Assembly: GCF_020166495.1 (NCBI RefSeq) | Contig: NZ_JAINZS010000005.1 | Coordinates: 1-64,000, forward strand | DNA from: Robertkochia aurantiaca | GTDB taxonomy: Bacteria > Bacteroidota > Bacteroidia > Flavobacteriales > Flavobacteriaceae | Reading direction: 5' to 3' | DNA: 64,000 nucleotides | In this document: piece by piece, positions 10,398 through 15,077 of the stretch | Position numbering within the stretch: the first letter of the stretch is position 1 | Layout of the letters: each line of letters begins with the position of its first letter | Notes under the pieces: model-generated | Told to the model about the DNA's origin: nothing | The model's input: the letters and a program-made list of their open reading frames with translations, nothing else | The model's database searches: none | Translations under genes and position numbers: made by a program

Positions 10398-11765
10398 ATG
10401 AAAAAAGTGTTTTCCGGCCTGCTCCTGGCCACATCACTTACCTTTCTTAACGCACAGGATTTTACCCGACAGCAGGTTACTGAAGAACTCTCTTTTCTAA
10501 GGGAAGAGATCATTAGGCTTCAACCGGGTTTACAAGTCTTTACTCCCACATTCGAACAGGAATCCCGGTATTTGATTCAAAAAATCACGTCTCCCTGTGA
10601 TACGATCGGTTTGTATGCAAAAGCATCACGGGTGGCAGCCCTTGCCGGTGAAGGACATTATACAATAGGAAATTGGCATGATGCTGTACACAAGGGCTTT
10701 TTGAATAACCGGTACCGGTATTTCCCATTTACCATACGTTTACTGGGACATCGAATGTATCTCTGGCATAATTACAGCGGTGATCAAAGTCTTGAAAAGG
10801 GCCGGGAGATCCTGGCAATTAACGGTCAGAATATCACCGAGATCATCAACCTGCTCAGTGATCATATCCCGGCAGACGGTAAAAATTCATCTTTCATCAG
10901 GGAAGAGATATCAAGAGGTTTTCAGTGGATGTATTATTTGTTCATAGCTACACCGGATACATTTAGGCTGCTGTTTGACGATCAGGAAGAAAAAGTGATT
11001 CCGGCATTGAAACGATCAGAGATGATAAGGAACTACAGGAAGGACAAAAATATGGTCTCTTCAGAATCCACTATCAATAAAAATGAGGTGTATGAACTGA
11101 TTTTACATAAAAATCATGCCTTATTGAGACTGAAAACCTTCGACCGGTATAGCATAGAAAAACAAAATTTACACGCAAGGACCTTCTACGAAGATCTTTT
11201 CAGAAAACTTCGGTCTCAACAGCTGAATAATCTGATCATCGATCTCCGGGGGAATATGGGAGGCCTGCATGAATTTGCCTTTGAGATACTCTCCTTTGTA
11301 AAAAGCCACACTTCCATGCCTTACTTCAAAACCACGGTTCCCAAAGAGGGGAAGCAGATCTCCTACCCCTTTCCTCCAAAGGAACCATTGAGCTGGGAAG
11401 GAAAAATCTATGTGCTTGTCAATGGGCTCACCTATTCGGCTGCTGCGTCGATGGCCCGCTATCTCAGAGAATACTGCCATGCCGTTATCATAGGTCAGGA
11501 AACAGGGTCCAGGTATGAAGGATTTGCCGCAGGAGCCCGTGAAATGATCGTATTACCGCATTCAGGCATCCATATCGGTGTTCCCAAATACGCTACTTTC
11601 TTTCCTCCCTCTCAAAGACAGACGGAAGGACTTGGAGGAATGTATCCGGATATCTTTGTTGAGCCGGGCATAGATGACTTATTGTCGGAGGTTGATCCCG
11701 AACTGGATACCGCCTTGCGACTTATCTATACAGAATCACCTATGCTTAGCAGTGCGCAGAACTGA
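10398..11765 (+). CDS. S41-family peptidase-like exported protein
   Basis: A 455-residue protein with signal peptide 1-19 (ending LNAQ) and a C-terminal tail-specific-protease fold. The motifs are LIIDLRGNMGG (about 278-288) and LVNGLTYSAAASMARY (about 338-353), where Ser346 in YSAAAS fits the S41 nucleophile; the C-terminal TEGLGGMYPDIFVEPG is also typical. No PDZ domain is obvious, although GREILAINGQNIT (about 135-147) resembles a PDZ core. Periplasmic processing or turnover is likely. No operon partner; the next gene starts 34 bp on. Confidence 0.8.
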   Translation: MKKVFSGLLLATSLTFLNAQDFTRQQVTEELSFLREEIIRLQPGLQVFTPTFEQESRYLIQKITSPCDTIGLYAKASRVAALAGEGHYTIGNWHDAVHKGFLNNRYRYFPFTIRLLGHRMYLWHNYSGDQSLEKGREILAINGQNITEIINLLSDHIPADGKNSSFIREEISRGFQWMYYLFIATPDTFRLLFDDQEEKVIPALKRSEMIRNYRKDKNMVSSESTINKNEVYELILHKNHALLRLKTFDRYSIEKQNLHARTFYEDLFRKLRSQQLNNLIIDLRGNMGGLHEFAFEILSFVKSHTSMPYFKTTVPKEGKQISYPFPPKEPLSWEGKIYVLVNGLTYSAAASMARYLREYCHAVIIGQETGSRYEGFAAGAREMIVLPHSGIHIGVPKYATFFPPSQRQTEGLGGMYPDIFVEPGIDDLLSEVDPELDTALRLIYTESPMLSSAQN

Positions 11766-11799
11766 GGTTACTCACCTGACTTTTCGTATCTTCAGTTTC

Positions 11800-12252
11800 A
11801 TGAAAACCATACGTCTTTTTAATAATCACATACTTCTTACAATATGCTTACTACCGCTTTTTTTTATTAGCTGTCAATCTGAGAGTGAACAGGATCAGGT
11901 TAACTGCGGAGAAGTGGTTTGCACCCTGGAATTCAGAATGATTCATATCAAAATTCGTAATGCGGAAGGAGGTGCCGTGGCCCTTGACAGTTACAGGGTT
12001 GTACGAAAAGATAACGGCTCAGATCTGGGTCTTGAACCTGAACAAACAGCTATTCAAAATATGCGGGAAACAGGAGAATACCTGCTGATCGACGATTCTT
12101 TTTCAGAACAGTTACGAAATTCTGAACAGGTAGTTAAGTTCGAAGGGTTTAAAGATGGTGAGATGATCGTTTCCGAAGACTATACTGTCGGAGCCGACTG
12201 CTGCCATGTACGCCTGATTAGCGGGAACCCTGAGTTGGTGATTAGAGGTTGA
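11800..12252 (+). CDS. Hypothetical lipoprotein, 150 residues
   Basis: ATG 11800 starts a peptide with a positively charged start and lipobox-like FISC (Cys25), then NCGEVVCTLEF and later ADCCHVRLISG; four Cys could form two disulfides in a small beta-rich domain. An upstream in-frame start at 11674 would overlap the S41 gene and lacks a signal peptide, so it is rejected. It resembles short flavobacterial lipoproteins of unknown role. The repeat array begins 15 bp after the stop. Confidence 0.65.
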   Translation: MKTIRLFNNHILLTICLLPLFFISCQSESEQDQVNCGEVVCTLEFRMIHIKIRNAEGGAVALDSYRVVRKDNGSDLGLEPEQTAIQNMRETGEYLLIDDSFSEQLRNSEQVVKFEGFKDGEMIVSEDYTVGADCCHVRLISGNPELVIRG

Positions 12253-12267
12253 TCCAATCTACAGGCT

Positions 12268-12926
12268 CCCTTCGACAAGCTCCCTTCGACAAGCTCCCTT
12301 CGACAAGCTCAGGGTGACATCCGGTTACAATTACACTTCTCACACTAGCATGATCGCAGGGTCACACTGAGCAGCGTCGAAGTGCGACCCGCTATCCAAT
12401 TTGTATCACATCATATCACCTTAGGATATGTTTCCAAAAACAGCACCCCTTCGACAACCCCGATACTTCGGGGCAGGGTGACAACACATTATCACTTCAC
12501 CGTTGACAAAGGCTGACAGCAGGGTCACACTGAGCTGCGTCGAAGTGCGACCCGATTGCTATTTATACCTAACCTATTAAATATCATATTTAATGACTAT
12601 GAATGAAGCTTTCTACGGCAGGCTCCCTTCGACAAGCTCCCTTCGACAAGCTCCCTTCGACAACCCCGATACTTCGGGACAGGGTGACATCCGGTTACAA
12701 TTACACTTCTCACACTAGTATGATCGCAGGGTCACACTGAGCTGCGTCGAAGTGCGAGCTGCTATCCAATTTGTATCACATCATATCACCTTAGGATATG
12801 TTTCCTAAAACAGCACCCTTTCGACAACCCCGATACTTCGGGACAGGGTGACATCCGGTTACAATTACACTTCTCACACTAGCATGATCGCAGGGTCACA
12901 CTGAGCAGCGTCGAAGTGCGACGCGC
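12268..12926. repeat. Palindromic repeat array, left part (elements 1-4)
   Basis: Four long inverted-repeat elements lie at about 12268-12390, 12447-12553, 12625-12757 and 12816-12926. Each has a left arm starting CCCTTCGACAA and ending AGGGTGACA, a 36-40-base loop, and a right arm AGGGTCACACTGAGC followed by a GTCGAAGTGCGAC end, so the arms fold back on each other. Elements 1-2 and 3-4 are joined by a 56-58-base conserved linker (CTATCCAATTTGTATCACAT...). A separate 9-bp AT palindrome lies at 12576-12594. No other gene fits. Confidence 0.9.
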
Positions 12927-13225
12927 TATTTATTATTTTTATTGTAAGGCTTTGATAATTCTTTGAGCAAATTGAAATCTCCATTAATCAATGCTTCCTT
13001 TTTCTTTCGACGCCAACCTTTCACCTGCTTCTCAAAGCTTATTGCCTGCTTCGGATCTGAAAATTCCTGGACCCAAACCAGCTTAACGGGGCGCCTTGAA
13101 TATGTATATGAAGTGTATACTTTCCCATCATTATGTTGCATTACTCTTTTATCTACATCAGATGTAAATCCCGTATAAAAGGATCCGTCAGAACATTCGA
13201 GGATGTATACATAATAGAATCTCAA
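12926..13225 (-). CDS. Solitary GIY-YIG nuclease embedded in repeats
   Basis: A 99-residue single-domain protein of the UPF0213/UvrC N-terminal type. It has YYVYILECSDGSFYTGFT (about 4-21, with YVY and YTG as the GIY and YIG motifs), Arg27 and His31 (KRVMQHN), and Glu65 (SFEKQVKGWRRKKK), the metal-binding Glu; the tail is basic. The start is TTG (13223-13225): no ATG is available in frame before an upstream stop. The TAG stop (12926-12928) lies in the end of repeat element 4, and element 5 begins 140 bp upstream of the start. DNA nicking at the surrounding palindromes is a reasonable hypothesis, not shown. Confidence 0.88.
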   Translation of the reverse strand: MRFYYVYILECSDGSFYTGFTSDVDKRVMQHNDGKVYTSYTYSRRPVKLVWVQEFSDPKQAISFEKQVKGWRRKKKEALINGDFNLLKELSKPYNKNNK

Positions 13226-13364
13226 CTTGCATTTATTGTGCTTAACAGAAAGCTGTGAATATTAATCAATATAAATCTATAGAAATTATTCTATATCATG
13301 ATGGTTTCAGTCTAAAAGTCTTTATCGAACGGATAAAAAAATCAATTTCAACTCAGCCGTGATA

Positions 13365-13797
13365 CCCCTTCGACAACCCCGATACTTCGGGGCAGGGTGA
13401 CAACGCATTATTACTTAACTATTGGCAAAGCCTGACAGCAGGGTCACACTGAGCAGGGTCGAAGTGCGACCCGCTAACCAATTTGTATCACATCATATCA
13501 CCTTAGGAAATGTTTCCTAAACAGCACCCTTCGACAAGCTCCCTTCGACAAGCTCAGGGTGACAACGCATTATTACTTAACTATTGGCAAAGCCTGACAG
13601 CAGGGTCACACTGAGCAGGGTCGAAGTGCGACCCGCTATCCAATTTGTATCACATCATATCACCTTTGGATATGTTTCCAAAAACAGCACCCCTTCGACA
13701 ACCCCGATACTTCGGGGCAGGGTGACAACACATTAACACTTCACCGTTGACAAAGGCTGACAGCAGGGTCACACTGAGCAGCGTCGAAGTGCGACCC
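13365..13797. repeat. Palindromic repeat array, right part (elements 5-7)
   Basis: Three more elements lie at about 13365-13472, 13527-13634 and 13691-13797, separated by the same 54-56-base linker as in the left part. Left arms come in two versions: CCCTTCGACAAGCTC, sometimes in tandem, and CCCTTCGACAACCCCGA with an internal CCCCGA-TACT-TCGGGG hairpin. Elements 5 and 6 share one loop; element 7 shares loop and 3' flank (GATTGCT) with element 2. 13226-13364 and 13798-13919 are AT-rich with no recognisable gene. Confidence 0.9.
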
Positions 13798-13919
13798 GAT
13801 TGCTGTCTTCTCTTTCTATATCTCCCTGAAACGACCGGAAAAACAAACTAAAAAAACTCAAACCGTACGCTTAACCCCTTGAAATCAAATAATATGTATC
13901 TTCCATAAAAAATTAAGCT

Positions 13920-15077
13920 TTGAAATCGCATCTTTCACTCTTCAGCCATTTTATCTTTCTGCCTTTGGCCGTTTTACTGTTTTTCTCTTGTAATAACGAC
14001 GATCTGAATGATTCACCAGACTCACGAGTATCTCCTGAACTCACCCTGATAGGCTACCTTCAGGGGTCAGTGGTACAAGCAGACCTAACCGAAAACGGAA
14101 ATCCATTTACCCTAACCGATCACAGCGCGATCAATGGCGTTCCCGCTTCGTTTCTCAGGTACGATCTGTATGCAGAAAGGATCTCGTTCTACAGCAGAAT
14201 CCCAGAAAACTTCAGAAGCTGGGACATTTTTTATGATGCTCCTGAAGGGACTTATTACGAAAGCTTCTGCTCTTTCAACCCGGAAGACATTTTGCTTTAC
14301 CCTCTTTCATCGGCTGAAAAATTGATAGCGGTAACAGGAACTCCCATCACCGAAAATCTCAGAGAAATCGCGGTTTATTTACGCGATAAGCAGGAATCTG
14401 AATGTGTGCGGCTGACTGTTGGCAATACGGCATTTTTCGAATACAGCGCCATCACCGAAGGAGAAAACCTGTATATCGGGTATCTTGATGAAACCGGAAA
14501 TACCGTGATCACAAAAATCGATCTGACTACCCTCGAGGGGGTCTGGAATATCAACCTGGGAGTTCAGGAAAGCTTCAAGGCCACCCTGGATCAGGACCGT
14601 ATCTATTTCTTTCTTTCCGGTAATGAGCTGGAAGTGAGATCAACTCAATCAGGAGAATTGATAAGCAGAAAATCGCTCAACTCAGTAAATCTGGATATGC
14701 CACAAGGTTTCTTCAGGACTGCCATTTACAACGACCAGATACTGTTGCGCAGTGTGAATCCGCAACCTAACCGGTTTCCCTATTCCCCGGTGATTCTCGA
14801 TATTAATACACTTGAAATGAATTATCCAAGTGAGAACGATCTCAGCAACAGGATATCAAATGACCTGAAGGGCATGCTCCCTGCCGGCAAGATGCTTGTC
14901 GAGCTCAGCTTACCTTATACGGTCGATCTGAGCAATGACCTGGTTATTTACAGCTGTACCTTCAGCAACGGAAGCGAAAACAGCTCGGGAGTGGTTATAA
15001 GTGATCTGCAGGGTACGGTTTTCGATTATTTTGATTTAGGATTATCAATGACCATTGGTGAAATTCTCGTTCGGTAA
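13920..15077 (+). CDS. Hypothetical lipoprotein, probable beta-propeller
   Basis: A 385-residue protein starting at TTG 13920-13922 (no ATG nearby gives a signal peptide). Lipobox-like FFSC gives Cys24, followed by an acidic linker NNDDLND. The rest alternates short beta strands with repeating motifs such as LYIGYLDETGNTVITKIDL, IYFFLSGNELEVRS and IYNDQILLRS, suggesting a WD40-like propeller. Bacteroidota have many such exported lipoproteins. No partner gene and no recognisable family; function unknown. It sits between the palindrome array and a gene remnant. Confidence 0.65.
   Translation: MKSHLSLFSHFIFLPLAVLLFFSCNNDDLNDSPDSRVSPELTLIGYLQGSVVQADLTENGNPFTLTDHSAINGVPASFLRYDLYAERISFYSRIPENFRSWDIFYDAPEGTYYESFCSFNPEDILLYPLSSAEKLIAVTGTPITENLREIAVYLRDKQESECVRLTVGNTAFFEYSAITEGENLYIGYLDETGNTVITKIDLTTLEGVWNINLGVQESFKATLDQDRIYFFLSGNELEVRSTQSGELISRKSLNSVNLDMPQGFFRTAIYNDQILLRSVNPQPNRFPYSPVILDINTLEMNYPSENDLSNRISNDLKGMLPAGKMLVELSLPYTVDLSNDLVIYSCTFSNGSENSSGVVISDLQGTVFDYFDLGLSMTIGEILVR

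Follow-up and report, generated by a model that had tools for sequence, protein, structure and literature searches.

The stretch of DNA analysed here (the window) comprises 64,000 nucleotides from Robertkochia aurantiaca. At positions 12266-13794 it holds seven imperfect palindromes in a row, with a single small gene placed between palindromes 4 and 5. The gene encodes a solitary GIY-YIG nuclease. Every long palindrome consists of two short hairpins with a GTCA head (REPs) arranged head to head, giving 14 units in total. The features, in order of position, are:

12266-12293, minus strand: element 1 tail stutter, two extra 14-bp units CTCCCTTCGACAAG
12295-12318, minus strand: element 1 left REP (GTCACCC...GGG)
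12361-12385, plus strand: element 1 right REP (GTCACAC...GTG)
12446-12482, minus strand: element 2 left REP, nested hairpin CCCCGAAGTATCGGGG replacing the loop
12524-12548, plus strand: element 2 right REP
12623-12650, minus strand: element 3 tail stutter, two extra 14-bp units
12652-12688, minus strand: element 3 left REP with nested hairpin
12731-12755, plus strand: element 3 right REP
12816-12852, minus strand: element 4 left REP with nested hairpin
12895-12919, plus strand: element 4 right REP, the stop codon of the gene 7 bp beyond
12926-13225, minus strand: solitary GIY-YIG nuclease gene, 99 aa, TTG start, TAG stop
13365-13401, minus strand: element 5 left REP with nested hairpin
13443-13467, plus strand: element 5 right REP
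13540-13563, minus strand: element 6 left REP, one extra 14-bp tail unit at about 13526-13539
13605-13629, plus strand: element 6 right REP
13690-13726, minus strand: element 7 left REP with nested hairpin
13768-13792, plus strand: element 7 right REP

The right half of each palindrome is the right-arm core GGGTCACACTGAGCNNNGTCGAAGTGCGA, of which there are seven copies between 12359 and 13794, all on the plus strand; a search allowing up to 3 mismatches found it nowhere else in the 3.43-Mb genome (11 contigs). The left half is a similar unit, inverted. Right units read GTCACACTGAGCNNNGTCGAAGTG and left units GTCACCCTG...TTGTCGAAGGG, with a spacer of about 40 bp between the facing GTCA heads. 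The nested hairpin takes the place of the loop in five of the seven left units, and one or two extra 14-bp tail units stand at elements 1, 3 and 6. This tail stutter has the look of a nicked 3' end that slipped or was copied again; a comparable stutter, with a different loop, is seen at G000:C11:37206 (L315). Successive right arms are spaced 163, 207, 164, 548 (across the gene), 162 and 163 bp apart, and the array resembles a tandem repeat with a unit of about 163 bp. When folded as single-stranded DNA, the seven elements had z-scores between -1.6 and -4.5 relative to dinucleotide-shuffled sequences. A known RNA family was considered and rejected, as Rfam gave no match up to E 1 across 11500-14500. 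Uniqueness of the seven repeats to this locus as a family was likewise rejected: only the exact right-arm core is confined to it, and the wider REP unit pattern is found as 35 exact copies genome-wide, nine of which lie within the array. Outside the array 21 REP sites were taken; one near a contig end (L294) could not be placed, and none of the other 20 lies inside an ORF of at least 120 aa. Clusters of same-strand single REPs amid long repeated intergenic sequence occur at G000:C8:106317-108734 and G000:C11:54988-58998, with no GIY-YIG match of the genome scan near either.

The preliminary description of this locus had placed a 99-residue GIY-YIG protein between elements 4 and 5, with its stop codon in the conserved end of element 4, and both statements proved correct. 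The protein matches Pfam PF01541 (GIY-YIG) with an E-value of 9.6e-19 (67.9 bits, cut-off 22.6) as the gene's sole Pfam match, and the stop codon occupies 12926-12928. When 25 relatives were aligned, Y7, Y17, G19, R27, H31 and E65 were invariant; these we take to be the GIY-YIG catalytic positions, and judged by its sequence the protein carries the residues expected of an active enzyme. An AlphaFold2 model (pLDDT 86.3) has as its best PDB fold match 1zg2, a UPF0213 protein, followed in Foldseek by SLX1 chains at an E-value of 0.009 and weaker; SLX1 acts on branched DNA. NCBIfam has no model that matches the protein, and no Ssn model is among its Pfam or NCBIfam matches. A listed defence protein was ruled out, the nuclease having no PADLOC match.

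Three more solitary GIY-YIG genes are present in the same genome (L002, L003 and L005), each lying between direct repeats of another sequence; at L002, for instance, a 93-bp copy built on GTCTTTGCGAACGTAGTGAAGCAA stands on each side, and the two are identical. The remaining four GIY-YIG matches of the genome fall in ORFs of 284 to 601 aa.

How general this arrangement is was assessed with three sets of loci: 33 loci from a GTDB genome scan with the window protein; the best match in each of 29 other Bacteroidota genomes (30 before the window locus itself, L052, was excluded); and 60 further places taken in rank order from the same Bacteroidota match list, excluding those with internal stops, at contig ends or already in other sets. 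Some of the loci may come from species already in the first set. Ten plasmid-collection loci and four control loci were hand-picked for spread. The repeat test is motif-free: each locus was compared with itself by BLAST with the nuclease masked, and repeats of at least 18 bp were required within 600 bp on both sides. Such repeats flank 26 of the 33, 23 of the 29 and 51 of the 60 loci, as well as 9 of the 10 hand-picked loci from Alphaproteobacteria, Neisseria and a cyanobacterium, and all three of the other solitary GIY-YIG genes of the window's genome. None of the four YazA-type controls from Bacillota and Fusobacteriota has repeats on both sides, and the figure is 37 of 1063 for pseudo-gene positions of the first set lying at a distance of over 2.4 kb. 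Across the three sets repeats cover a share of 0.22-0.28 of the sequence close to the gene, compared with 0.02-0.06 at 900-1500 bp. The association between solitary GIY-YIG genes and palindromic repeats is therefore general: the proposed link would have fallen had such nucleases usually stood away from repeats, and 100 of the 122 loci are flanked on both sides, with 22 lacking this. Chance or an assembly artefact, to which we assign a negligible probability, is refuted by the recurrence of the pattern in three locus sets and in named records of several phyla, against that control value of 37/1063.

Among the named records, the homologue in Neisseria gonorrhoeae (a 2.17-Mb record filed as a plasmid) stands amid 16 matches to dRS3, ten on one side and six on the other, all within the 3.1-4.7 kb section of an 8.3-kb stretch. 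Copies of GTCATCCCAGGGCTTGACCCTGGGAT lie on both sides of the nuclease gene in Rhizobium CIAT894, one GTCGCCCCGTGCTTGACACGGGGC lies on each side in Novosphingobium, and GTCATTCTGAGTGAAACGAAGAA is on both sides in Planktothrix. On plasmid p1 of Planktothrix agardhii (L083), the REP-framed GIY-YIG gene is located between an MmeI-type restriction gene and the DISARM gene drmA. At seven loci (L019, L025, L032, L035, L039, L045 and L047) the C-terminus of the nuclease extends into the flanking REP, with ends such as DPSTSSR, GSTSSP and LGMTQ, the stop or the tail thus coming from the REP. Some nuclease copies carry stops or have a shifted reading frame, for example L043 and L044.

The repeats around these genes share a common build. 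A density scan used a REP motif in which GTC[AT] is followed by three free bases, then YGA, a loop, GA and finally the complement of those three bases. It gave 6.5 matches per kb in the nearest 100 bp around the gene and 0.02 per kb at a distance of 5-10 kb, against a background of 10 matches in 670,650 reversed bases; the count in this motif-density scan was 55 of 66 loci with the window locus entered once (56/67 when entered twice). To avoid circularity, covariation was examined with only GTCA...YGAGC..GTCGAR fixed and the stems left free. Under this scheme 66 of 84 distinct locus-stem combinations are complementary over all four pairs, while 1000 shuffles averaged 6.5 and never exceeded 16. 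A second detector, which requires a GTC head together with either the REP motif or a perfect stem of 7 and misses repeats of another build, found at least two GTCA-headed hairpins at 28 of 33, 17 of 29 and 31 of 60 loci, compared with 17 of 1204 background windows. Its calls around nucleases carry GTCA in 348 of 398 cases. For the third set, only 42 of the 60 loci have at least one head-anchored hairpin call, against 152 of the 1204 background windows.

The nucleases and their hairpins were also compared as pairs. From 149 nuclease loci, 33 had no hairpin call and ten were dropped by eye as un-REP-like (L003, L043, L046, L048, L071, L078, L118, L164, L259 and L266), which left 106. Between genomes, protein distance correlates with REP distance (Mantel r 0.553), a value reached in none of 2000 shuffles. 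Given that close genomes share both the nuclease and the REP, a within-genome test was added, which takes a nuclease's own REP and asks what lies nearer to it, the REP of the closest relative in a different genome or the REP of a less related nuclease from its own genome. The relative's REP was the nearer one in 47 of 60 comparisons, with the other 13 pointing the opposite way; shuffling REPs within genomes gave a mean of 32.2 (sd 4.1) and a maximum of 46. The window nuclease itself pairs with a locus from a MAG (L019) at 62% identity and a REP distance of 0.16, whereas its REP distances to its genome mates are 0.51 and 0.49. Nuclease type and repeat type thus match across genomes. Were the two merely to live together, with repeat-rich intergenic regions tolerating insertions and repeat recombination carrying along a nuclease gene that does nothing to the repeats, neither this match, across and within genomes, nor the sharp fall in REP density within 600 bp would be predicted. 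Repeat arrays do recombine anyway, as Sinorhizobium meliloti Ak57 and Sinorhizobium sp. M103 illustrate, both having the gene but differing by about two repeat units of ~220 bp; we nonetheless consider such passive cohabitation very unlikely.

Comparisons of filled and empty sites show that the module comes and goes between genomes. In Mucilaginibacter sp. OK268 the nuclease is present twice, on different contigs, and the two copies share a main block of 506 bp at 92.9%, consisting of a REP pair, the gene and a REP pair and ending near GTCA heads; the other matches between the two 20-kb loci coincide with REP copies. A search for the corresponding empty site found homology to either flank with broken synteny and no clean empty site. 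Two copies in G112 likewise have a common block, the right end of which is at a REP head. In the window's genome the interval between dus and a permease gene measures 788 bp and contains a REP pair, a nuclease gene and a REP pair. The same interval is 153 bp in G001, 326 in G003 and 231 in G004, all of the same genus, and 22 in G005 and in G015, of the same family, and in none of these five does it contain a GIY-YIG match even at E 10. In G011 (L221, G011:C24) the interval instead holds a ParD-type antitoxin gene (Pfam E 2.1e-25) and a 100-aa neighbour, two kinds of selfish cargo at a single intergenic spot.

At the fnrL site of Sphingobium, the aligned plasmids of TomMM7A and TomMM15 carry a REP, the gene and an inverted REP, and those of TomTYG64, 74, 72 and 65 are without the gene. 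TomTYG64 and 74 keep one REP-like palindrome, CGTCACCCCGGGTCAAGCCCGGGGTGACG, that is identical to the outer parts of both REPs, and the other two empty alleles (72 and 65) have no REP at the site; the difference could be either gain or loss of the gene. For the window array itself no empty site was found, a DNA search with its upstream flank in 40 relatives having matched only its own genome, and the search for L003 returned partial matches only. Eight tandem copies of another small GIY-YIG gene, in steps of 359-368 bp, were seen at L116 (G091:C34:6988-9745), and similar tandem runs in G266 and G242; the REP finder detected nothing at the L116 array, and genes of this type may be a different amplifying family. 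The tandem 163-bp units of the window, the unit difference between Ak57 and M103 and tandem nuclease copies would all fit breakage at repeats. We infer from the OK268 copies and the filled and empty sites, which lend it some support, that the nuclease may mobilise or copy the repeats.

Repeats equally abundant in genomes without the nuclease would have spoken against the link, and on this point the outcome is mixed. Among Bacteroidota genomes with at least five REP copies, 20 of 22 have a related nuclease compared with 54 of 96 others (Fisher p 0.003, a value that ignores kinship and counts one REP class). The exceptions are G041, which has 237 matches to the TGAGC-type REP, and G071, which has 5: neither has a solitary GIY-YIG gene, and each has just two GIY-YIG frames, with lengths of 609 and 460 aa in G041 and 622 and 462 aa in G071. 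Within the genus of G041 a match to the nuclease profile at E <=0.001, in many cases a weak one, occurs in 30 of 60 genomes. The two exceptions imply that REPs can persist without a solitary nuclease, or that something else maintains them. Orphan REPs are likewise known to persist without RAYTs, and G041 offers a natural test case of orphan REPs.

Several known systems resemble this locus. The UPF0213/YazA proteins (PDB 1zg2 and 1ywl) are the nearest solved sequences and folds, but in Bacillus and Radiobacillus YazA belongs to a compact operon that includes trmNF and rsmI, and repeats are absent from its flanks; with the window gene alone in its REP array, assignment to that operon type was rejected. 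Free-standing GIY-YIG homing endonucleases, such as Seg and F-Tev, provide a parallel for a selfish nuclease gene that would spread via repair of its own cut. Here the target would differ: a short, abundant hairpin repeat, copies of which also border the gene left and right. A homing gene would be expected to stand within its recognition site and to have that site intact in empty alleles; of the four empty Sphingobium alleles, two retain a REP-like palindrome there and two do not. Resemblance to RAYT transposases and their REPs (REPtrons), with a different nuclease fold, had been pointed out in the preliminary description and is borne out: a single gene is framed by its palindromes, and dispersed, non-autonomous repeat copies occur elsewhere. 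The window gene, however, encodes a GIY-YIG hydrolytic nuclease (PF01541) and not a Y1 HUH transposase, and its repeats have the head GTCA, not GTAG.

The closest counterpart appears to be Ssn, and in this respect the earlier statement that no established system of this kind was known is not supported. Ssn is reportedly a GIY-YIG family of site-specific single-stranded nucleases, said to have been first characterised in Neisseria by the Veyrier laboratory (Nat Commun 2025); the Neisseria enzyme is reported to bind a repeat, the NTS, present in hundreds of copies and to affect transformation, and to have homologues of other specificities. The N. gonorrhoeae homologue in its dRS3 array we take to be Ssn itself. 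Common to both are a solitary GIY-YIG protein of about 95-100 aa and many copies of a cognate repeat; the gonococcal gene stands in a repeat array, and the window gene is similarly a small solitary GIY-YIG gene amid several copies of a matched repeat. The two differ in that the window protein is 37% identical to the gonococcal one over 78 residues, its repeat has another sequence, and its repeats form a local array instead of numbering in the hundreds; cleavage by the window protein is putative. As Ssn is reportedly a published GIY-YIG family with target repeats, the window locus is filed with it and would, if that work is taken as true, be a member of the known Ssn kind.

This likeness also lends weight to another reading, in which the nuclease serves the host as a gatekeeper that cuts REP-bearing incoming or displaced strands and thereby controls transformation or recombination, the REPs being kept as marks. 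Ssn and the NTS in Neisseria are reportedly described as such gatekeeper-type control of single-stranded DNA, and the gonococcal locus has the same layout, with 16 dRS3 around a homologue of that identity. Patchy presence in near relatives, however, looks selfish and unlike a conserved host function, as do the tandem or dispersed nuclease copies, and a gatekeeper sits poorly with several unlike nucleases in one genome, each with its own REP, and with the few REPs in the window's genome (those 35 exact pattern matches). We regard the gatekeeper role as unlikely here.

The repeats themselves can be placed with the CGTC-tagged REPs, a class of short extragenic hairpins that carry a GTC head and for the most part stand in pairs, head to head, TGTC heads being allowed as well (Di Nocera et al. 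2013, PMC3733652); dRS3 is CGTC-1 in that scheme (PMC3733652). The window units resemble them in being short hairpins with a GTC head, here in seven head-to-head pairs. Left units have TGTCACCC or ACACCC-type heads with GTCA, and right units GGTCACAC; since the right units have GGTC, the published head is matched by the left units (the TGTC kind) and by the right units only as GTC. The four published families have an 8-9 bp stem, a 4-5 nt loop, A/T first stem pairs and a CCA tail (PMC3733652), whereas the window units have a 4-bp outer stem, an unpaired (bulged) A before the stem, a longer loop and no CCA tail. They are thus CGTC-like but outside the four published families.

A further difference is that repeats of the window type flank a nuclease gene, while the published CGTC repeats are said to lack a dedicated transposase, the missing enzyme being posed as an open question (PMC3733652). 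One might suppose that another transposase, such as a RAYT, moves the REPs and that the GIY-YIG protein only resolves or degrades intermediates. RAYTs do move GTAG REPs, and tyrosine transposases are noted in several CGTC-repeat species, but by the same account no CGTC repeats flank any of those transposase genes (PMC3733652), and we hold this to be extremely improbable. Our own search, in journals other than most subscription and non-commercial-licence titles, found no publication linking GIY-YIG genes with REPs or dRS3.

Taken together, we think it likely that the gene and the repeats form one system, an Ssn-type GIY-YIG nuclease with matched hairpins that behaves as a minimal homing-like selfish element. 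The REP consists of a GTCA head, a short covarying stem and a loop whose form varies with the type of nuclease, and units are arranged in head-to-head pairs. Most likely the nuclease would recognise the head and hairpin in DNA made single-stranded by replication, repair or DNA uptake, and nick it. Host repair from other REP copies could then duplicate, spread or delete the REP-nuclease-REP block, the enzyme living inside its own repeat and cutting at that same repeat. Cleavage, the preference for single strands and the driving of spread by the cut are thus attributed to the enzyme provisionally, and the data suggest that the nuclease with its own matching repeats forms a selfish mobile unit of very small size.

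Possibly new are the connection with CGTC-type REPs as a superfamily, the statistical agreement of nuclease with hairpin from genome to genome, and the mobile unit framed by REPs; the literature search of the scope given above found no paper on them. Solitary GIY-YIG proteins may be the dedicated enzyme that the 2013 paper described as missing for CGTC-type REPs (PMC3733652). The wider proposition, which seems to us about evenly balanced, is that they are the missing mobility enzymes of a CGTC-like REP superfamily in several phyla. A REP pair, nuclease and REP pair of about 0.5 kb would then rank among the smallest autonomous selfish elements. It would spread in a homing-like manner by cutting hairpins of its own type in single-stranded form; nuclease and loop would coevolve, and orphan REPs would be left behind after nuclease loss. 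REPs are common in bacterial genomes, and the match between nuclease and hairpin offers a candidate enzyme for CGTC-type REPs in many of them. The matched pairs would constitute a natural set of enzymes and targets from which the recognition code might be read, and the single-strand nuclease family said to have been described recently would be tied to the origin and turnover of REPs.
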